From NCBI RefSeq assembly GCF_037975245.1, contig NC_092567.1, positions 20,645,376 through 20,709,375 on the forward strand: DNA of 64,000 nucleotides, written 5' to 3'. Of the stretch, positions 1 through 49,185 are shown piece by piece. How positions within the stretch are numbered: the first letter of the stretch is position 1; every line of letters starts with the position of its first letter. The stretch comes from Apostichopus japonicus. Lineage: Eukaryota; Echinodermata; Holothuroidea; Aspidochirotida; Stichopodidae. Position numbers and translations under genes: made by a program. Below the pieces are notes generated by a model. The model worked only from the letters and a program-made list of their open reading frames with translations. It did not search any database and was not told the DNA's origin.

Positions 1-3870
<3,870 letters not shown>

Positions 3871-5562: not shown

Positions 5563-6697
5563 CGTATGTGACTATAAATTTGCAATTTCTTTATCGTCAT
5601 TTATCATTGAACATAATCATAGAACAGTCCTCTCTTAATAAAGACGAAAGGCAAAGTAACTTAATTTCTTTCCTCTTACCCTTTTCATATTTTTTGCAAA
5701 GTATTGTAAATTTGACGCACGCACTGATAGGAACCGTCTCCCGTTTTTTACTTTTTTATACACAAAATTTACTACTGCGGCATTTCACACCCAACCAAAG
5801 ATAAGCGTTAAGTTATGCGATCCCACAAGTAGACCTGACATGTTTCAATTATAGTCAACGAAACTCAACAAGAAAAGATAACATTAAGGTTGATGAAACT
5901 TGCTTTGGATTGCAATATGTCTAACTGACGCAGGCCTTCTATCGATGAGACTGCTAAATTAATATTTTTAGACAGTTCTCGTCAGGTACGTGTGGACCCC
6001 AAGACATATAAGAAACATCAAATATGATAGTGAACGAAAATCTAAAGGGCAATGCCTTGCTGATGTTTTGCTTTCTCTGTCGGCTTGAAGATGTCTGGAC
6101 AGTATATATTCTATACGATATGATTGATCGATGCGATGAATAGGTAATGGGCATATTGCCCAATGAACGCCAAATGGGAAATATGTTATAGCGTTTGTGT
6201 TTTTTGCAAGTTTTATAAGTAAGCTTCGTTCTTTAATGTAACACGTTCGCTTATATGGAAATGACAGGATTGGAAAGGTGGCACGCACAATTTCTCCATC
6301 ACCGAATGGAGACCTATAGTTACTAAGTTCCTATGCTGATGTGTAAATTCTTATAAAAATACGTTATAGTATATGATACGTTATGAAAAGGTATCTATCT
6401 ATCTATCTGTCTGTGTGTCTGTCTGTCGGTAAGGAAGGTCGTAATTCCACTGTAGGCGTTTGACACCTGTATCGAACAATACTAGTTCTGTTTTAGTGAC
6501 ATATTTGCGCCACTCTAGAGATCAAACATGATGCTAACCAACTCGAAATCATTTGTGATTCTTAAAGCCGGATCTCGAAAGTGATACTTTGAACATACTT
6601 GATGTTAATGAAATGGAGGTAAACGACAAAGGCAAATGAATATATATAATTGAAAATCGTAATGAGTTGGAAAATCAAGAACAGTGAAAAAACTTCC

Positions 6698-38956: not shown

Positions 38957-39291
38957 AACATGACGCATTTTGGGATGGGGGCGACCGCCCGCCCCCCCCC
39001 CCATTCAGCATTTTTTTAAATGATATCGCTAAGTAATTTCAAAATAGAAAGTGCTTAGAGGCAACTTACAAGGCCTGGGAAGTGTCATTTCCAGCGATCT
39101 GGGAGACCAAAATTTGCTTGTACGCTTCGCGCTAACAAATGGTCCTGGGTAGTGCCATTTCCAGCGATCTGGGAGGCATTTTCGGCCAAAATTTTCTTGT
39201 ACGCTTCGCGCCAACCTATGGTGGCGCTACGCTTAGATAATTTGCCTACAGGCTTCGCCCCTCCCTTGGCAAATTCCTCGCTACGCGCCTG
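38957..39291 (+). mobile_element. Partial CAGGCGCGTAGCCA-type MITE with duplicated internal module
   Basis: The right end GCTACGCGCCTG at 39291 and the interior match the other copies, but the left terminal repeat is lost. The 100-bp module occurs twice in tandem (39075-39145, partial, then 39146-39240). It interrupts the element that starts at 38520. Confidence 0.65.
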
Positions 39292-41528
39292 TTCGAATTT
39301 GTAACGCAAACAGCAGATATCACATCATATCAATGAGCATGAAAATGGCGTTCCAGGATGAAAAGCCTCAAAACTGTCCGACTTGCCTGAAAAAATAACC
39401 AAAAATTTTCGCGTGCTTAGCGCGCGTTCAACGTGTTCATGTCAATATCATATAAGCAAGCATCGGTTATTACATCGCATGCCATCATGTACCGTACGGT
39501 CCGTTCAAATTGCGCAGTATTTCGCGGGATGCTAATGTAAACAACGACATGTCTCATGTAGATGTATAAAAAGCATGGAGGTCCAATTATGTAAAAACTC
39601 TCTTTTACATTAGTAATGGCGAATTAGGGGCTGCACCCCCGCCGCGCAGTGGCGGAGCGTCCATACGGTCGGGGGGTGGATGCCCCCCCTGACGGACTCA
39701 AATGGACTGCTGGCGCCTTTTCAGCTCTTTACCACTTTTTACTTATTCTAGATTATTAACTTTTTTATTGCGCTCTCATCTACTTATTGACATTTGTCAC
39801 ATTTTGTTGGTGTAATTTGGCGATGACACCTTATTCTTCGTTTATCTGCAAATTAGCCAGGCCCGGAAAGGGTCATTTCCGGCGATCTAGGGAGTATCTT
39901 TATTCAAAAATTTTCTGTACGCTACGCGCCAACCAGTGGTGGCGCTCCGCTTAGATAGTGTCCAGAGCCGTATATAGAGAGAGTTTGGCCAACCATGTAA
40001 CCGATTTGGATTGGTCGAGAGGGAAAACGCCCACACAGGGTGGTAAAATAGGTCCACTTGAACACTTTATAGCAGACGACACGCATACTCACAGTGTATA
40101 GACTATCGTTTTGTACACGAAAAAAGTACGAAATTATGAAAGAAATGGTGCTGGGGATGCTGCAATCGGTCAGAACATGGATATTGTTGTTCGATTATCC
40201 GACTGACCATAAAAGAAGAGGAATTTTTTGGAAGTAGAAAGAACAAGATGGAGATCTAATGAAAAAAAGTCTGTGTAGCCTAGGCCCATACTAGCCATAG
40301 GCCCTAGTGTAATACGAGTAATGTACAAGCAATGCGAGAATTTTACGTTCAGACTGGTTTCTGTAATTACATGAATGGCTATTCTCTCTCGTTTTACGAT
40401 CCACAAATTCGATTTCATTATGCCAGCTCTCCTAATCATAGGCATGGCAGTTTCAGTCGCACATATAGTTATCCTAATTCCTAGTTATTGCATGCCTAGG
40501 CTATGCCTAGCCTAAAAAAGTATCACTTTTAGTTCTATGTAAAAGGGTGGGCTAGCCTCTAGGCATCACGTAAAGCCCTAATCCTTAGTTAAGCCCGAAG
40601 CATAAGTTAAGCCTGGGCTTAGTTAGACCTGGACCATTCTTGCTATTACTACAACTGTTATAGCACATTACATAATATGGCACAGTATAAGGCCCAATTA
40701 AACTAGGTCTAAGGAAAACAAAGTAGCCTAGGCCTAAACTAGTTAGGCTAGGTCTATACTCATTGGCAACTTGTGGGTTGTGTACACATACAGGCCTAAT
40801 TATATAGACCCTTTTAGTATGTCATAAACAAGTGCCCAAATGGTTAAATGATCTTGGTTTGTGTTAATTGTCAGCATTGGCCTAGCCTTTTTAGGCTAAC
40901 ATGAATTCAGCCTAATTTTTTCTTCTTCAAAAGTATAGCCTAGGCCTTGGTTTAATTTGGATGCAGTCAACTATCATTTATCAAAGTTGCATCAGTACCT
41001 CCTTATTCCCTTAATTGACACCCACATTGACGATTGAAGTTAAAAAAAACCTTTTTAAATTATCTTTAGACAGTAAATTTTAACTCCCTGAATTTCAGGA
41101 CTTTTTTTACAAATCAAAGGTGACATGTGCTCTGAAGAAAAACTCCTAACATAAAAAGCCACAGTTAGCAGACTGTGATAATGACAAACCTGGTGAGTGA
41201 CTTCTAGACTGAAATCCAGTTCCTGCAACCACAGCAATAAAGTCTTTGTTTTAATCAATGCACTTGTGTGTTTGAAACTTTCAAATGGACACTCAATGGC
41301 AGTTGGTTAAGATATAAGGTTTTACCTTCATCATGGAGAGTCGAAGGGAATCTGCCTCATCATCTGAATAATGGACTCAAGGATAGCAACAAATCATGAT
41401 TGGATAATGATTTTGAGCAAGTAAATATCTGGCAATTTGAAAGTTTGTATTATTTTTTTACATATTATTTAAGCTGTTTAGCTCACACACAAGCAAATGA
41501 TCAAGTGACAACAACCGATGCAGTATAT

Positions 41529-41891
41529 TTAAAGGTATTGAAGACTTGCCCTAAACCGCATGCCGCGCTCTGAAAAAGTTTACTTTCCGTTGCTTGCAAG
41601 TGAAGTTTTTTTTGTGTCGCTACAAAATGCAGACAGTAATGAAACCCGATACCTTGTTATCTTTTATCTAGACCTGAGATGTCCACGCTGCTATGTGCAC
41701 TGTGTTGTGGGTATTGACAGTGATGTTTGTATTGACTGTACACTAATGTCTATTTACAGATGGTAGCAAGCTGTATGTGTATTTTCTGGGATCAATGGTG
41801 GTGTCTAACACTTCTGTTACACCGCATTCGAATCTAGGTCAGATAACCGGCATGAGACGTTTCTTTGTGCGGGAGTCTCCACACCCTTTAA
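41529..41891 (-). mobile_element. TTAA-flanked MITE inside P copy 1
   Basis: A unit of about 355 bp lies between two TTAA tetranucleotides. Its ends are imperfect inverted repeats: AGGTATTGAAGACTTG at one end and the complement of AGGGTGTGGAGACTCC at the other. The same unit occurs at 46503-46865 and, with more divergence, at 33237-33605. TTAA flanks suggest a piggyBac-like transposase source; that assignment is inference. Confidence 0.6.
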
Positions 41892-42242
41892 GGAGAAGTA
41901 TTTATATCCCATTAATAGAGAAAGAATTATGTTTCAATTGGTAGCATGCAACTTAAAATTTTGCAAACATTAGATACAATCAAACAATAACAAGGTTCAT
42001 TTACAAGGTAATCTACTGCCCTTTATTTCACATTAGTCTGTCACATCAGAAGGTCACAGCTTTCAATAATTATACAAACAAATTCCCTTGATGGGTGCTT
42101 CGTTAGTTTCCTGCAATTTTCAAGTTTATCAATGTAATAAGTTCTGAATGTGGCAATGTGGAGAAGCTTTGGGATAATCTGTGGATAAGACTGCCAGACT
42201 ATCAACAAGATTCCACATCCATGCAACTCCAACTGCTTCCTT

Positions 42243-42731
42243 CACCTCCTTGCAGATGTACCACATGTCCAAAAAAAAGTCAGCATTGGTTAATGTAATT
42301 AAAAGCTGGCTTCCTCCTGAGCTGGCAAATACACATGAATTGTCAAGTACAGAGGTCAGTGTGAAACCACTGAGAGATCTTCTCAGCTTTCAAGAAAACA
42401 AAGACTTGAAGCCAAATTGACAGAGGCCACACTGATACCATTCCACTCTCATAAGATGAAGGTATCACACACACTTCATTTTGCTTCTGCGATGCAGTGC
42501 CTGGTAGACTGTGAGGGTCACCCAATGGATGTTTTAACAACTGCCTGGTTTATAGAGCTCTACAACAGATAATTCATCCTAATGTCTAGTCGTTATCCTG
42601 TCATGGCCTTGAGCAAGTTGAACCCACTTCAACACAAAGCAGCTATTGAATTCTTGTCTAGGTACTGTCAAATCCACATCACCATCATTGCTGGTTCCAG
42701 CTTCGCTGACCATGATAAAAGAGTACAATGA
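42243..42731 (+). pseudogene. P/THAP9-like transposase C-terminal remnant in P copy 1
   Basis: A DVPH motif lies at 42255. After a one-base frameshift near 42415 an open frame runs KLTEATLIPF..KMKVSHTLHF (ATG at 42456), then TAWFIELYNR, an in-frame TAA, then FILMSSRYPVMALSKLNP, ending at TGA 42729-42731. The order D-x-PH, KLTE..KMKV, and LMSSR.PVMALSKLN corresponds to the GTP-binding insertion and C-terminal RNase H-like parts of THAP9/P transposases. The N-terminal THAP zinc finger and the rest of the catalytic domain were not found. The frameshift and the TAA are also present in the inverted copy, so the shared ancestor was already defective. Confidence 0.7.
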
Positions 42732-43475
42732 GGGTTTTTTACTTCACCCAACAGAGCTTGCATTCCAGTACCATTGGGCAGCTGAAAAGATATTCAGAAA
42801 TTGTTATATATGAGTGTGTTTGTATGCATGCATATGCGTGATTTTCTTGCTTTACAGAACAGCTCCATTTTGATAAGCTACGTAACGTGTAAACCTGCCA
42901 ATCATATGTTTGAAATAGGACACGCTGAAACGATTCTTAAATGAAAAGCTTAACGACTTCATGCATTTTTATACATCACTGTTCAGGTAAGGCCAGTAAG
43001 GGCAGTATGAAGAATAAGTAACAATTAATAATTATCATTATGGCCATTTGCTGTCTGCATAAAAACAAACTGAATGATGTCATCAGCCCTATGCTCAGTT
43101 GACAACACTGACAAGTAGGCACACTATGTCAGTGTGATCCATGAAACCTCATTAAGGACATGACCGTATAGTATATATGTTAATGGAAAATACATAAGCT
43201 ACAACATACACCAGTATTCAGTTGTTGCAGGTTTTTTTTTTCTCGACAGACCCATTCAATCTGTTGCACCTACTATAGCCTAGTACTACATTCCTGAGAA
43301 ATTAACACCACAATATCAGTCTTAGGTTTGCCCACAGACTCCCAACTATTGCTAACTCCTACACTCAAGTATATAGTTTAGTTTAGTAGAAAAAATGACC
43401 AGGAGAGACATTCAAGTCCCCATTAAGGACCCTAAGGCTATATGAGAGGAATAAAACCGAGGACATCAAATGTCA

Positions 43476-43665
43476 TACCCAATTACAATGCTTAATGTAC
43501 TCATCCAAAGTATTCTTAAACCCATACACACTACTTGCAATTCAACCTTCTCAGGCAAACCATTCAATCCATCCAGTATAAGTTGTATTAGACTTTAGAG
43601 AAAAAGTTATGCCGAATATTAATCCTACTATGTAGCTTCTGGAGTTTAATACAATGACCTCTGGT
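43476..43665 (-). pseudogene. LINE reverse-transcriptase 3' tail fragment inside P copy 1
   Basis: Mirror copy of the LINE tail at 44723-44920, at the matching position of the inverted P element. It was therefore present before the two P copies diverged. Confidence 0.6.
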
Positions 43666-44722
43666 ACAACTACTTTTTGGCAAACCTGAAAGATCAGTGA
43701 AGCATAAATTGTCATTTTATGTGTAGGCCTACTTTATTTAATTGAAGGATCTATTAATGTAGGCCTGATGCTATAGTTTTGCGTCTGTAATCTAGCCTAG
43801 CCAGGACTGTGATGTGTGCTTTTCGTTTGTATGACTAAAGTAGGACTAGTAGTATGAGGCGTAAAATAAAACAAGTGTAATGACAGGTTTTCAGCTACTT
43901 TTCTATGCATTTCAGGTGTGAAGATAAACGTAAATGTTATTAACTAACGCATACTCTAATTCATTACCTGATATCCATTTTGTTCCTCGTATGCCTGTCA
44001 AAATCTGACATTCTGAGTCGCTTCGTTTGTTCGCAACGAGCACAGTGTGCAAAGCTGCTATATATTGTGTGTGGTGTTTTTCGTGTTTCGCGCAACTGGT
44101 AACGACAACTGGACCTATTTTGATGCCCATGGTTTGCGTGTGACGTCACAAATCGCCAGTTGGCCAAACTCTCTCTATATACGGCTCTGATAGTGTCCAG
44201 AGCCGTATATAGAGAGAGTTTGGCCAACTGGCGATTTGTGACGTCACACGCAAACCATGGGCATCAAAATAGGTCCAGTTGTCGTTACCAGTTGCGCGAA
44301 ACACGAAAAACACCACACACATTATATAGCAGCTTTGCACACTGTGCTCGTTGCGAACAAACGAAGCGACTCAGAATGTCAGATTTTGACAGGCATACGA
44401 GGAACAAAATGGATATCAGGTAATGAATTAGAGTATGCGTTAGTTAATGACATTTACGTTTATCTTCACACCTGAAATGCATAGAAAACTAGCTGAAAAC
44501 CTGTCATTACACTTGTTTTATTTTACGCCTCATACTACTAGTCCTACTTTAGTCATACAAACGAAAAGCACACATCACAGTCCTGGCTAGGCTAGATTAC
44601 AGACGCACAACTATAGCATCAGGCCTACATTAATAGATCCTTCAATTAAATAAAGTAGGCCTACACATAAAATGACAATTTATGCTTCACTGATCTTTTC
44701 AGGTTTGCCAAAAAGTAGTTGT

Positions 44723-44920
44723 ACCAGAGGTCATTGTATTAAACTCCAGAAGTTACATAGTAGGATTAATATTCGGCATAACTTTTTCTCTAAAGTCTAA
44801 TACAACTTATACAAGGGTTGTGAATGGATGGAATGGTTTGCCTGAGAAGGTTGAATTGCAAGTAGTGTGAATGGGTTTAAGAATACTTTGGATGAGTACA
44901 TTAAGCATTGTAATTGGGTA
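44723..44920 (+). pseudogene. LINE reverse-transcriptase 3' tail fragment inside P copy 2
   Basis: With one frameshift and stops, the plus strand reads TRGHCIKLQKLHSRINIRHN, then YTRVVNGWNGLPEKV, then SVNGFKNTLDEY. This is the typical carboxy end of CR1/Jockey-type LINE ORF2 proteins, which close with a WN.LP..V...SV..FK..LD motif. Only this tail is seen; no upstream reverse-transcriptase motifs were found nearby. Confidence 0.65.
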
Positions 44921-45663
44921 TGACATTTGATGTCCTCGGTTTTATTCCTCTCATATAGCCTTAGGGTCCTTAATGGGGACTTGAATGTCTCTCCTGGTCT
45001 TTTTTTCTACTAAACTAAACTATATACTTGAGTGTAGGAGTTAGCAATAGTTGGGAGACTGTGGGCAAACCTAAGACTGATATTGTGGTGTTAATTTCTC
45101 AGGAATGTAGTACTAGGCTATAGTAGGTGCAACAGATTGAATGGGTCTGTCGAGAAAAAAAAACCTGCAACAACTGAATACTGGTGTATGTTGTAGCTTA
45201 TGTATTTTCCATTAACATATATACTATACTGTCATGTCCTTAATAAGGTTTCATGGATCACACTGACATAGTGTGCCTACTTGTCAGTGTTGTCAACTGA
45301 GCACAGGGCTGATGACATCATTCAGTTTGTTATTATGCAGACAGCAAATGGCCATAATGATAATTATTAATTGTTACTTATTCTTCATACTGCCCTTACT
45401 GGCCTTACCTGAACAGTGATGTATAAAAATGCAAGAAGTCGTTAAGCTTTTCATTTAAGAATCGTTTCAGCCTGTCCTATTTCAAACATATGATTGGCAG
45501 GTTTCCACGTTACATAGCTTATCAAAATGGAGCTGTTCTGTAAAGCAAGAAAATCACACATATGCATGCATACAAACACACTCATATATAACAATTTCTG
45601 AATATCTTTTCAGCTGCCCAAAGGTACTGGAATGCAAGCTCTGTTGGGTGAATTAAAAAACCC

Positions 45664-46151
45664 TCATTGTACTCTTTTATCATGGTCAGCGTAGCTGGAA
45701 CCAGCAATGATGGTGATGTGGATTTGACAGTACCTAGACAAGAATTCAATAGCTGCTTTGTGTTGAAGTGGGTTCAACTTGCTCAAGGCCATGACAGGAT
45801 GACGACTAGACATTAGGATGAATTATCTGTTGCAGAGCTCTATAAACCAGGCAGTTGTTAAAACATCCATTGGGTGACCCTCACAGTCTACCAGGCACTG
45901 CATCGCAGAAGCAAAATAAATTTGTGTGATACCTTCATCTTATGAGAGTGGAATGGTATCAGTGTGGCCTCTGTCAATTTGGCTTCAAGTCTTTGTTTTC
46001 TTGAAAGCTGAGAAGATCTTTCAGTGGTTTCACACTGACCTCTGTACTTGACAATTCATGTGTATTTGCCAGCTCAGGAGGAAGCCAGATTTTAATTACA
46101 TTAACCAATGCTGACTTTTTTTTGGACATGTGGTACATCTGCAAGGAGGTG
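45664..46151 (-). pseudogene. P/THAP9-like transposase C-terminal remnant in P copy 2
   Basis: Inverted counterpart of the remnant at 42243-42731, with the same frameshift and the same in-frame TAA before FILMSSRY. A few additional substitutions are private to this copy. It is non-functional. Confidence 0.7.
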
Positions 46152-46502
46152 AAGGAAGCAGTTGGAGTTGCATGGATGTGGAATCTTGTTGATAGTCTGG
46201 CAGTCTTATCCACAGATTATCCCAAAGCTTCTCCACATTGCCACATTCAGAACTTATTACATTGATAAACTTGAAAATTGCAGGAATCTAACAAAGCACC
46301 CATCAAGGGAATTTGTTTGTATAATTATTGAAAACTGTGACCTTCTGATGTGACAGACTAATGTGAAATAAAGGGCAGTAGATTACCTTGTAAATGAACC
46401 TTGTTATTGTTTGATTGTATCTAATGTTTGCAAAATTTTAAGTTGCATGCTACCAATTGAAACATAAATCTTTCTCTATTAATGGGATATAAATACTTCT
46501 CC

Positions 46503-46865
46503 TTAAAGGGTGTGGAGACTCCCGCACAAAGAAACGTCTCATGCCGGTTATCTGACCTAGTTTCGAATGCGGTGTAACAGAAGTGTTAGACACCACCATT
46601 GATCCCAGAAAATACACATACAGCTTGCTACCATCTGTAAATAGACATTAGTGTACAGTCAATACAAACATCACAGTCAATACCCACAACACAGTGCACA
46701 TAGCAGCGTGGACATCTCAGGTCTAGATATAAGATAACAAGGTATCAGGTTTCATTACTGTCTGCATTTTGTAGCGACACAAAAAAAACTTCACTTGCAA
46801 GCAACGGAAAGTAAACTTTTTCAGAGCGCGGCATGCGGTTTAGGGCAAGTCTTCAATACCTTTAA
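46503..46865 (+). mobile_element. TTAA-flanked MITE inside P copy 2
   Basis: Inverted counterpart of 41529-41891, with TTAA at both ends. Confidence 0.6.
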
Positions 46866-49185
46866 ATATACTACATCGGTTGTTGTCACTTGATCATTTG
46901 CTTGTGTGTGAGCTAAACAGCTTAAATAATATGTAAAAAAATAATACAAACTTTCAAATTGCCAGATATTTACTTGCTCAAAATCATTATCCAATCATGA
47001 TTTGTTGCTATCCTTGAGTCCATTATTCAGATGATGAGGCAGATTCCCTTCAACTCTCCATGATGAAGGTAAAACCTTATATCTTAACCAACTGCCATTG
47101 AGTGTCCATTTGAAAGTTTCAAACACACAAGTGCATTGATTAAAACAAAGACTTTATTGCTGTGGTTGCAGGAACTGGATTTCAGTCTAGTAGTCACTCA
47201 CCAGGTTTGTCATTATCACAGTCTGCTAACTGTGGCTTTTTTTGTTAGGAGTTTTTCTTCAGAGCACATGTCACCTTTGATTTGTAAAAAAAAGTCCTGA
47301 AATTCAGGGAGTTAAAATTTACTGTCTAAAGATAATTTAAAAAGATTTTTTTTAACTTCAATCGTCAATGTGGGTGTCAATTAAGGGATAAGGAGGTACT
47401 GATGCAACTTTGATAAATGATAGTTGACTGCATCCAAATTAAACCAAGGCCTAGGCTATACTTTTGAAGAAGAAAAAATTAGGCTGAATTCATGTTAGCC
47501 TAAAAAGGCTAGGCCAATGCTGACAATTAACACAAACCAAGATCATTTAACCATTTGGGCACTTGTTTATGGCATACTAAAAGGGTCTATATAATTAGGC
47601 CTGTATGTGTACACAACCCACAAGTTGCCAATGAGTATAGACCTAGCCTAACTAGTTTAGGCCTAGGCTACTTTGTTTTCCTTAGACCTAGTTTAATTGG
47701 GCCTTATACTGTGTTATATTATGTAATGTGCTATAACAGTTGTAGTAATAGCAAGAATGGTCCAGGTCTAACTAAGCCCAGGCTTAACTTATGCTTCGGG
47801 CTTAACTAAGGATTAGGGCTTTACGTGATGCCTAGAGGCTAGCCCACCCTTTAACATTAAACTAAAAGTGATACTTTTTTAGGCTAGGCATAGCCTAGGC
47901 ATACAATAACTAGGAATTAGGATAACTATATGTGCGACTGAAACTGCCATGCCTATGATTAGGAGAGCTGGCATAATGAAATCGAATTTGTGGATCGTAA
48001 AACGAGAGAGAATAGCCATGCATGTAATTACAGAAACCAGTCTGAACGTAAAATTCTCGCATTGCTTGTACATTACTCGTATTACACTAGGGCCTATGGC
48101 TAGTATGGGCCTAGGCTACACAGACTTTTTTTTCATTAGATCTCCATCTTGTTCTTTCTACTTCCAAAAATTCCTCTTCTTTTATGGTCAGTCGGATAAT
48201 CAAACAACAATATCCATGTTCTGACCGATTGCAGCATCCCCAGCACCATTTCTTTCATAATTTCGTACTTTTTTCGTGTACACAAACGATAGTCTATACA
48301 CTGTGAGTATGCGTGTCGTCTGCTATAAAGTTTTCAAGTGGACCTATTTTACCACCCTGTGTGGGCGTTTTCCCTCTCGACCAATCCAAATCGGTTACAT
48401 GGTTGGCCAAACTCTCTCTATATACGGCTCTGATAGTGTCGAAAGCGCTCCTACAGACCATTCTCGCCACTCCTGACCAATACCCCTAGCTCCGCCACTG
48501 CCGCCGCGCCTCCTACGCCTGTGTGTAGTGTTCGGTTGAAGGAAATATCTGCTATTTTTTCATTTTCTTCAACCAAGTTTTATAATAGCCGTTATAAGAG
48601 GTTTTAATGTTTGTACACCAATATATGAACTGTGTCTGAATTTTCGAAAATTTCTGACCAACATTCTGCATCACACTTCCCTCTACTCGTGCAATTTTGA
48701 CCGGTCTGTTAGGGGTTCAAGGAAGTTTTTCTATATTGGTTGTCCATAGATGAAATTTTGTACAACATTTAGGGTATGTTTTCAAGTGAGTTTATTCACG
48801 AGAAATGTGAATTTTCAAATTCTGAACAAATATGGGGCTTAAAACCTTGAAAAGTGGGGCTGACGGGTATTGTGGGCCGCGACGTAGAATCACCTACAAA
48901 AGCAAAGACCCACAGGAGATGCCATCAGGTCGAACATGATGTGTGCCGGGTTGACAAACTTCAAAAAGGTTATGGATGGAAAAAAAAAACTATTAGGAAA
49001 TACCTGGTTCTCAGGCAAAAAGTGTACATCTGGTTGGTCATTTCAAGCCCGAGAAGTGCCATTTCCGGTGATCTGGGGGGGTTTCAAAACAAGAAATTTT
49101 CTTGTACGCTGCGCGCCAACCGATGGTGGCGCTCCGCTTAGATAGTAATTCGCGCCCCCCGGGTTTGAAAATCCTGGATACGCGC

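Follow-up and report, generated by a model that had tools for sequence, protein, structure and literature searches.

The window analysed here is a stretch of 64,000 nucleotides from contig NC_092567.1 of Apostichopus japonicus, and it holds two neighbouring non-autonomous P elements, one of them inverted, with a single 8-bp target between and around them. Their parts are given below, with tblastn matches referring to the transposase of a longer related element on contig C21.

39907..39957, + strand: tail of a local repeat (family D1), within which lie the signal and the first bases of the target
39938..39944, + strand: target signal GGTGGCG, separated by 10 nt from 8-bp target copy 1, on its outer side
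39955..39962, + strand: 8-bp target copy 1, ATAGTGTC
39963..44189, + strand: copy a, non-autonomous P element of 4227 bp, left end at 39963 and right end at 44189
39963..39993, + strand: left-end 31-bp TIR of copy a
42144..42798, + strand: P transposase piece in copy a, decayed and internally deleted (tblastn, E 5e-52 and 1e-16)
44159..44189, - strand: right-end 31-bp TIR of copy a
44190..44197, + strand: 8-bp target copy 2, common to both elements
44198..48432, - strand: copy b, non-autonomous P element, inverted, of 4235 bp, right end at 44198 and left end at 48432
44198..44228, + strand: right-end 31-bp TIR of copy b
45597..46250, - strand: P transposase piece in copy b, decayed and internally deleted (tblastn)
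48402..48432, - strand: left-end 31-bp TIR of copy b
48433..48440, + strand: 8-bp target copy 3

The 8-mer ATAGTGTC occurs three times in the window when both strands are counted, at 39955, 44190 and 48433, that is, on the flanks of the copies and between them, just as an earlier note on this DNA had stated. The count alone says little (2.08 occurrences are expected by chance, and 32 of 100 shuffles reached at least three); what matters is that each occurrence exactly abuts the end of a TIR. The note was also right in giving each copy complete 31-bp TIRs: all four are identical, and a search of the window that allowed up to 3 mismatches over 21 bases found no TIR beyond them. Read from the subterminal sequences, the middle of the double is the meeting point of two right ends, and the decayed transposase piece runs from left end to right end, so that the description of the pair as two 4.2-kb P elements set tail to tail is correct. 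By eye, a shared AAAATAGGTCCA[CG]TTG, a candidate for the internal transposase binding sites that P elements have beside their TIRs, lies close to both element ends. Further copies of the D1 repeat, at 39189-39239 and 49094-49144, have no element inserted.

To which superfamily do these elements belong? Pfam scans of the window (ten open pieces, copy a translated in six frames and its stops written as X, and selected stretches) gave no relevant match, and PDB searches with two window peptides found no transposase. The C21 element, whose left end is the same as that of the window copies, encodes a protein matching the RNase-H-like model PF21787 (E 1.1e-33) and the GTP-binding insertion PF21788 (E 9.1e-13) of Pfam, as well as the P transposase structure PDB 6p5a (E 5.9e-38). 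The THAP domain PF05485 lies upstream in two separate open pieces, one above the cut-off (E 2.8e-8) and one below it (E 0.0096), which are presumably joined by splicing. Because this relative in the same genome shares their left end and encodes a P transposase, the window elements are, judging from sequence, non-autonomous P elements, and an element of the C21 type is the likely source of their enzyme. An 8-bp duplication is found in 14 of the 15 loci given with both flanks, and the remaining one, L026, reads as a 9-bp duplication. The hAT superfamily, raised by the 8-bp target and the CAG-type TIR, was rejected: the same-ended C21 transposase is of P type, and no hAT Pfam model matched at E 0.01. 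A TIR fragment sought in papers, viral contigs and prokaryote contigs gave no match, and both contig sets may omit the genome of the window itself.

An inverted pair of this kind invites the suspicion of an assembly artefact, in which one copy, or two haplotypes, would have been miswritten as two arms. Such an error would account for the 98.8% identity of the arms over 4223 aligned columns, and two loci on contig C16, which lie 179 kb from each other and have identical flanks, show that part of this genome could have been assembled twice. However, the arm alignment, which the earlier note had proposed as a check, reveals private differences amounting to 51 substitutions and 9 indels, and the sampled copies closest to the two arms are different ones, both in other places: L016 on contig C4 for copy a (12 differences in 4218) and L023 on contig C10 for copy b (31 differences in 4230). 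These differences and the placing of the relatives on other contigs make a mirror artefact unlikely, and many other loci show the same junction design with different 8-mers; we consider this explanation highly improbable.

The same relationships bear on replication-coupled self-transposition, by which an element hops from the sister chromatid into the duplication beside its own copy, so that the arms would be daughters of one element. Such hops naturally give inverted neighbours at one target, as seen here, but in a tree of 30 copies the partners are non-sisters in all nine complete pairs, and copy a is nearest to the C4 element, a single copy, and copy b to the one on C10. The tree omitted both copies of L011, the second copies of L012 and L013, L017 and L022, which are incomplete or have other DNA attached. 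Self-transposition is thus very unlikely to have produced the double.

The arrangement recurs across the genome, which contains 183 left ends of this family and 25 junctions where TIR faces TIR. With 0-30 bp allowed between them, the tips lie exactly 8 bp apart in 24 of the 25. Twenty junctions join intact ends, 12 inverted and 8 direct, and the other five involve excision footprints; inverted orientation was considered as a special feature and discarded on the counts of intact junctions (p = 0.50). Intact neighbours with one common target, whether inverted or direct, are found at 18 loci, two of them being the C16 loci with identical flanks and another two having one target in reverse complement, and the independent loci may number 16 or 17. 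Random insertion of 183 copies predicts about 0.00005 such pairs. Set against the 183 left ends, the 38 copies at the 18 loci suggest that about a fifth of all copies stand in arrays, and stacking at one target looks like a habit of this P family. Among the stacked loci there are apparently triple arrays, and excision footprints at some such sites. Insertion of a second P element into the 8-bp duplication made by the first, as the earlier note proposed, is supported as the best reading of the window. Such an event is not rare in this genome, with 18 loci sharing a target in this way, and a directional signal beside the site, rather than accident, is the likely cause.

Might the double instead move as a unit by means of its outer ends, as a composite transposon? 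The outer ends are indeed complete TIRs, but a moved unit would bring along its old middle 8-mer, which would bear no relation to the outer target at the new place. In the ten doubles with all three targets read, the middle target is identical to the outer ones in nine and their reverse complement in the tenth, which leaves the composite next to no likelihood. That tenth case (C3:9796575-9804963) is one of eight inverted doubles with three targets read, and it gives limited support to the suggestion that such near-palindromes are unstable: a flipped middle target is what recombination between the arms would leave, whereas the original order persists in the remaining seven.

Another question is what marks the target. 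A signal, G[AGT][GT]GGC[AG], accompanies the 8 bp on one side, at a distance of 10 nt. Among 18 two-flank loci, 15 have it at exactly this distance on a single side, with the same 7-mer class and spacing as in the window, and none has it on both; this count omits L026 (for its 9-bp overlap) and the single-flank loci. One-sided flanks have it at 10 nt in 8 of 20 cases and at no other offset. The string GGGCG gave 121 matches, with the predicted gap in 61 among the 100 matches listed, while none of the nine matches to its reverse complement, CGCCC, had that gap. The 7-mer was worded after both flank sets had been seen, so that its P values are descriptive, and many targets lie inside repeat families and hence are not fully independent. 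The idea that the element's own ends also carry the signal is not supported: best scores there were at most 6.9, whereas the 20 sites from which the score was built have a median of 18.0 and a minimum of 5.3.

Excision has left its own record, with 205 forward-strand matches to footprint-like places and about 200 or more such places in the genome. Among the 58 footprint places listed, 57 are no longer than 34 nt (2 x 17), where up to 52 was allowed, and one is exactly 17+17; the longest TIR prefix is 18, in 15 of the 58, and its last base could derive from the other side. The footprints fit, indirectly, a 17-nt staggered cleavage within the TIR. The strict 7-mer signal is at the 10-nt place in only 8 of 20 fetched footprints. 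At L101 the footprint of another TIR family (TAGAGTTCC...) occupies the same 8-bp target, and at L014 a footprint of that family, seen by eye, adjoins the target.

Can the signal by itself explain the stacking? Outside the elements, the window has about 5 sites scoring at least 10 in every 10 kb. Twenty coincidences among 183 copies would imply about 830 equal sites, and since scoring sites are far commoner than this, the signal alone is not enough: an extra concentrating factor, be it occupancy, open chromatin or a resident element, must be at work. Perhaps, then, it is the resident that attracts, with a transposase or TIR-tethered transpososome preferring the 8 bp beside an existing end and needing no flanking signal. 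This possibility draws strength from the commonness of the signal, from the share of copies found in arrays and from the order of ages. If every new copy landed on the signal side, as in the explanation favoured below, the copy there should be the younger; judged by the lengths of terminal branches (a poor clock among 30 sampled copies), it was so in four of nine pairs, one of which (C7:11.65) has its signal side placed by a near variant of the signal, and this prediction failed. Yet single insertions also have this signal, on one side and equally spaced, so that it is present without a resident, and the TAGAGTTCC... footprint at the same target in L101, together with that at L014, suggests that the site rather than the resident ends may attract. 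Attraction by the resident is a possibility that we regard as doubtful.

The explanation that we favour for the 8.5-kb near-palindrome, and consider probable, is that a non-autonomous transposon of the P superfamily inserted twice, in succession and independently, at one regenerating, signal-guided 8-bp target. Direct observations on which it draws are the three identical targets, the two non-sister copies, the recurrence elsewhere, the footprints, and a signal that stands on one side only and at a constant distance. New copies would land 10 nt away from the short directional signal, on one side of it, and by duplicating the 8 bp each would restore the full series of signal, spacer and target next to the signal. 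The site would thus stay available, and one or two further elements could enter these 8 bp facing either way; excision leaves footprints that keep up to 17 nt from each TIR. Repeat landings would then be caused by the regenerated target and guided by a protein bound to the signal, either the transposase itself or a host factor.

A bolder extension, rather unlikely in our estimate, is that a factor of the host, bound to DNA at a sequence like that recognised by CTCF, serves as a docking post, and that occupied posts act as lasting sinks. The transpososome would cut at a fixed distance on one side of the post, and with the distance from post to target restored each time, elements of more than one TIR family could stack, excise and restack. 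Compared with the CTCF consensus CCASYAGRKGGCRS (PMC6746451), most of the 20 unique flanks agree with the GRKGGCRS half, whereas neither the CCAS half nor the preceding A is matched; a CTCF-like reader of the signal is a candidate and only a lead.

Why should this matter? The P element is a textbook transposon. Its choice of target has been described in terms of a palindromic motif and open chromatin (PMC3276498, PMC7776569). This genome offers a natural archive, in its left ends, junctions and footprint-like places, which indicates strong, directional targeting at a fixed distance and makes the guidance of a P-type transpososome testable. It also offers a simple reason for double insertions, namely that the site repairs itself, and genomic evidence, in an animal, for a cut up to 17 nt inside the TIR. 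If docking posts are real, such posts, possibly anchors of chromatin loops, would gain near-palindromes able to flip or invert neighbouring DNA.

Among known systems, one parallel is the Drosophila allele singed-weak, in which two inverted P elements have a common 8-bp target. They lie in the singed promoter, and the allele is highly mutable once P is mobilised (PMC7176646). The likeness is that of two P elements at one site; here, however, the arrangement is natural, it extends to 18 loci with inverted, direct and apparently triple forms, footprints occur at some of them, and a flanking signal stands at fixed spacing. With the Drosophila P element itself, whose footprints fit a 17-nt staggered cut (PMC7776569), the family has in common the 31-bp TIRs, the 8-bp target duplication, a transposase with THAP, RNase-H and GTP-binding parts, and footprints of the 17-nt type. 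The target motifs of natural Drosophila transposable elements, as characterised in PMC3276498, are always palindromes reaching no more than 3 bp beyond the duplication, whereas the main signal here is one-sided and 10 bp away. In Atlantic cod, tandem insertions of hAT MITEs at inversion breakpoints have been proposed as drivers of rearrangement (PMC12368964), and the repeated insertion of one DNA-transposon family is alike; the cod elements, however, are hAT-derived MITEs with repeated internal units, and the excerpted account describes neither a single shared target duplication nor a signal at fixed distance. Finally, zebrafish Pdre2/THAP9 has 13-bp TIRs, 8-bp target duplications and internally deleted copies, and gave no integration in the assays described (PMC10983969). 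Both are P-like elements outside insects with 8-bp duplications and internally deleted copies, but the TIRs of the present family measure 31 bp, and its near-identical copies point to recent activity.

The pair of P-type elements in the window, copies a and b, is built as the earlier note had proposed: each copy carries complete 31-bp TIRs, all four identical, and one 8-mer lies outside and between the copies.

Features of the window pair, and of a related element on contig C21 of the same genome
39938-39944, signal GGTGGCG, part of a local repeat's tail
Left of copy a, between the copies and right of copy b, 8-bp target ATAGTGTC, three times, fitting the TIR tips exactly
39963-44189, forward strand, copy a, 31-bp TIR at each end
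44198-48432, reverse strand, copy b, 31-bp TIR at each end
C21:1211465-1211743, GTP-binding domain match, 3.1 kb inside an element with its left end at C21:1208331

Three occurrences of ATAGTGTC prove nothing, since 2.08 are expected by chance in the window; what carries the proof is the exact abutment on the TIR tips. The tail-to-tail order stands as well, because right end faces right end at the center of the pair and, in each copy, the decayed coding piece runs from the left end toward the right. Aligning the arms, as had been suggested, gives 98.8% identity over 4223 columns, with 51 substitutions and 9 indels. The double-P insertion of the Drosophila singed-weak allele is likewise inverted. 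Elsewhere in the window, a four-base repeat of ~1 kb (2637-3832) translates as (IYLS)n in each forward frame; four tRNA-Cys-like genes (anticodon ACA), or SINE heads, lie at 6697, 7062, 16741 and 38373.

What kind of elements are these? Pfam scans of copy a gave no relevant domain match, no stop-to-stop frame in 30 sampled copies of the 4.2-kb family exceeds 137 codons, and no usable transposase was found in the 4.2-kb copies. Searching the same genome for the P-type GTP-binding domain gave 40 matches. The C21 match lies in a fetched stretch whose open frame, 766 codons or longer, holds RNase-H and GTP-binding domains and has the P transposase 6p5a as its best PDB match (E 5.9e-38); two THAP-domain pieces lie upstream in this element, the second under the Pfam cut-off. 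On C9, a GTP-binding match is flanked by left and right element ends 6.36 kb apart; target ATCTGTAT adjoins each end, and GAGGGCG stands 10 nt away from it. With the C21 transposase as query, decayed pieces appear in the window copies at 42144-42798 and 46250-45597. Since they hold this decayed P piece and no usable transposase, the 4.2-kb elements are non-autonomous P elements, whose transposase probably came from the C21 or C9 element.

A scan of the genome (671.6 Mb, 35 contigs) found 183 left ends with at most 3 mismatches in 40, and 167 (66 + 101) exact across 33 element bases. An exact search for two facing TIR tips separated by 0 to 30 bases returned 25 junctions, 24 with a spacing of exactly 8 bases; in 20 both ends are intact (12 inverted, of which 5 are left-left and 7 right-right, and 8 direct), and five have excision footprints. 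If 183 copies inserted at random, ~0.00005 pairs at one target would be expected. The intact junctions fall at 18 loci, those on C11 and C14 having two each and being apparent triples; the outer target of the last C11 copy deviates (ATAGTTTC). Because the flanks of two C16 loci, 179 kb apart, are identical, and another two share a target in reverse complement, only 16 or 17 of the 18 may be independent.

Some neighborhoods deserve mention in their own right. The direct doubles at C16:17524810-17535495 and 17704080-17712661, ~176-179 kb apart, are flanked by identical sequence and have P-transposase matches close by; they represent a segmental duplication or one region assembled twice. Arrays 80 kb apart near C16:689557 and 769563 carry target AATGTAAG in opposite orientations, the GGGCG signal standing beside only one among the matches listed, and are candidates for an element-mediated 80-kb inversion or inverted duplication. 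Similar sites at C11:19580756 and 19663898, 83 kb apart, both with target TTCAGCAC and with oppositely oriented elements, suggest one duplicated site hit twice independently.

Another question is how the partners came together. All three targets were read in ten doubles (the window, C2:24.17, C2:30.24, C5:20.57, C7:11.65, C7:25.51, C8:34.60, C9:28.23, C12:26.06 and C3:9.80). They are identical in nine; at C3:9.80 the middle one matches both outer ones in reverse complement, and both outcomes fit badly with a double that moved as one composite transposon. The C3 double (C3:9796375-9805160) is tail to tail, with outer targets TACCAAGT and middle target ACTTGGTA, likely a trace of recombination between inverted arms. 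Or are the partners self-copies of one element? This fits badly too, because in a tree of 30 copies none of the nine complete pairs were sisters, the nearest sampled relative being a single C4 copy for copy a (12 differences in 4218) and a C10 copy for copy b (31 differences in 4230). These separate relatives likewise sit badly with an assembly mirror image. The window double is best read as two independent insertions.

Footprints, the TIR remnants left after excision, were sought as two short TIR tips with up to 30 bases between, giving 205 + 185 strand matches, palindromic ones counted twice. Among the matches listed are 58 distinct places, 57 of them with at most 34 nt and one with exactly 17 + 17, an upper limit that fits the cut 17 nt within the TIR described for P transposase (PMC7776569). 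The 8-bp flanks of 20 fetched footprints are identical in 11, differ by one base in three and do not match in six; by eye, four of these six (L098, L100, L101, L106) show a single target with several remnants, while a TIR-like remnant adjoins L091 and L090 has no such feature. At C3:5296099, three copies of the window's target ATAGTGTC are separated by TIR remnants alone. At L101 (C3:12949602-12949781), two P-family footprints and, between them, the footprint of another TIR family share one target. Other-family footprints (TAGAGTTCC...GGAACTCTA; TAGAG...TTCTA) occur at or beside P-family targets at L101, in the right flank of L014 and at L113 (C16:774140-774290), the last two read by eye; several TIR families may share landing sites.

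What do these sites have in common? GCCCTCT-like words at one spacing were first seen in flanks of single and double insertions, and again at fixed spacing in a second set of 20 left-end flanks (non-junction ends, in contig order, C1-C4). Written as G[AGT][GT]GGC[AG], the signal stands at a distance of exactly 10 nt from the 8-bp target in 8/20 one-sided flanks. Of 18 loci with both flanks, 15 have it there on one side only and none on both (the other three show near variants at the same place, by eye). The window background is 0.0009 per position and strand; the flank counts are description more than test, because the 7-mer was worded after sight of both flank sets. Among the 20 fetched footprints, 8 have the strict 7-mer 10 nt from the outer 8 bp. 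A cleaner genome-wide test, GGGCG followed by 5-35 bases and a TIR tip, gave 121 matches. Among the 100 listed, 61 have a gap of 18 (10 + 8), not 61 independent sites because several targets are copies of repeats; the remaining 39 show 12 other gaps, several being repeat-family targets with a second GGGCG close by. The reverse complement, CGCCC, gave nine matches, none at gap 18.

Two more copies of the window's local repeat (39220-39244 and 49125-49149) hold signal, spacer and target without an element, and elsewhere in the genome, at L026, an element lies within a copy of this repeat at ATAATTTG, with a 9-bp duplication, corresponding to the target of the copy at 39220-39244. The window repeat at 39189-39239, 39907-39957 and 49094-49144 has a conserved tail, GGTGGCGCTNCGCTTAG-ATA; several fetched insertions beside such tails have targets starting ATAGT, and the repeat looks like a hot target.

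With a one-sided signal at a fixed distance, insertion would leave the signal side with its signal, spacer and target restored, so that the same 8 bp would stay open to another landing in either orientation. Such rebuilding would account for double and triple insertions, for mixed families and for the absence of significant orientation bias (12 inverted vs 8 direct intact junctions, p = 0.50). The order on C19, an intact element signal-proximal and two remnants beyond, fits as one case. The weaknesses are that terminal branches make the signal-side copy the younger one in no more than 4 of 9 pairs, and that the signal is far too common to account for the number of coincidences unless insertions use a small part of its sites. 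As for its reader, the GRKGGCRS half of the CTCF consensus CCASYAGRKGGCRS (PMC6746451) fits the signal logo and the CCAS half does not; low signal scores at the element's own ends make recognition by the transposase THAP domain less likely.

Drosophila is known to have double P insertions (PMC7176646), and exact site reuse is documented there as well, 178/1,226 natural P insertions lying at the same sites as artificial ones (PMC3276498). Among the titles and abstracts that literature searches brought up, none reports a one-sided, fixed-distance target signal for a P element. The target motifs described in PMC3276498 are always palindromes extending at most 3 bp past the duplication, whereas the signal described here is one-sided and lies 10 nt from the target.
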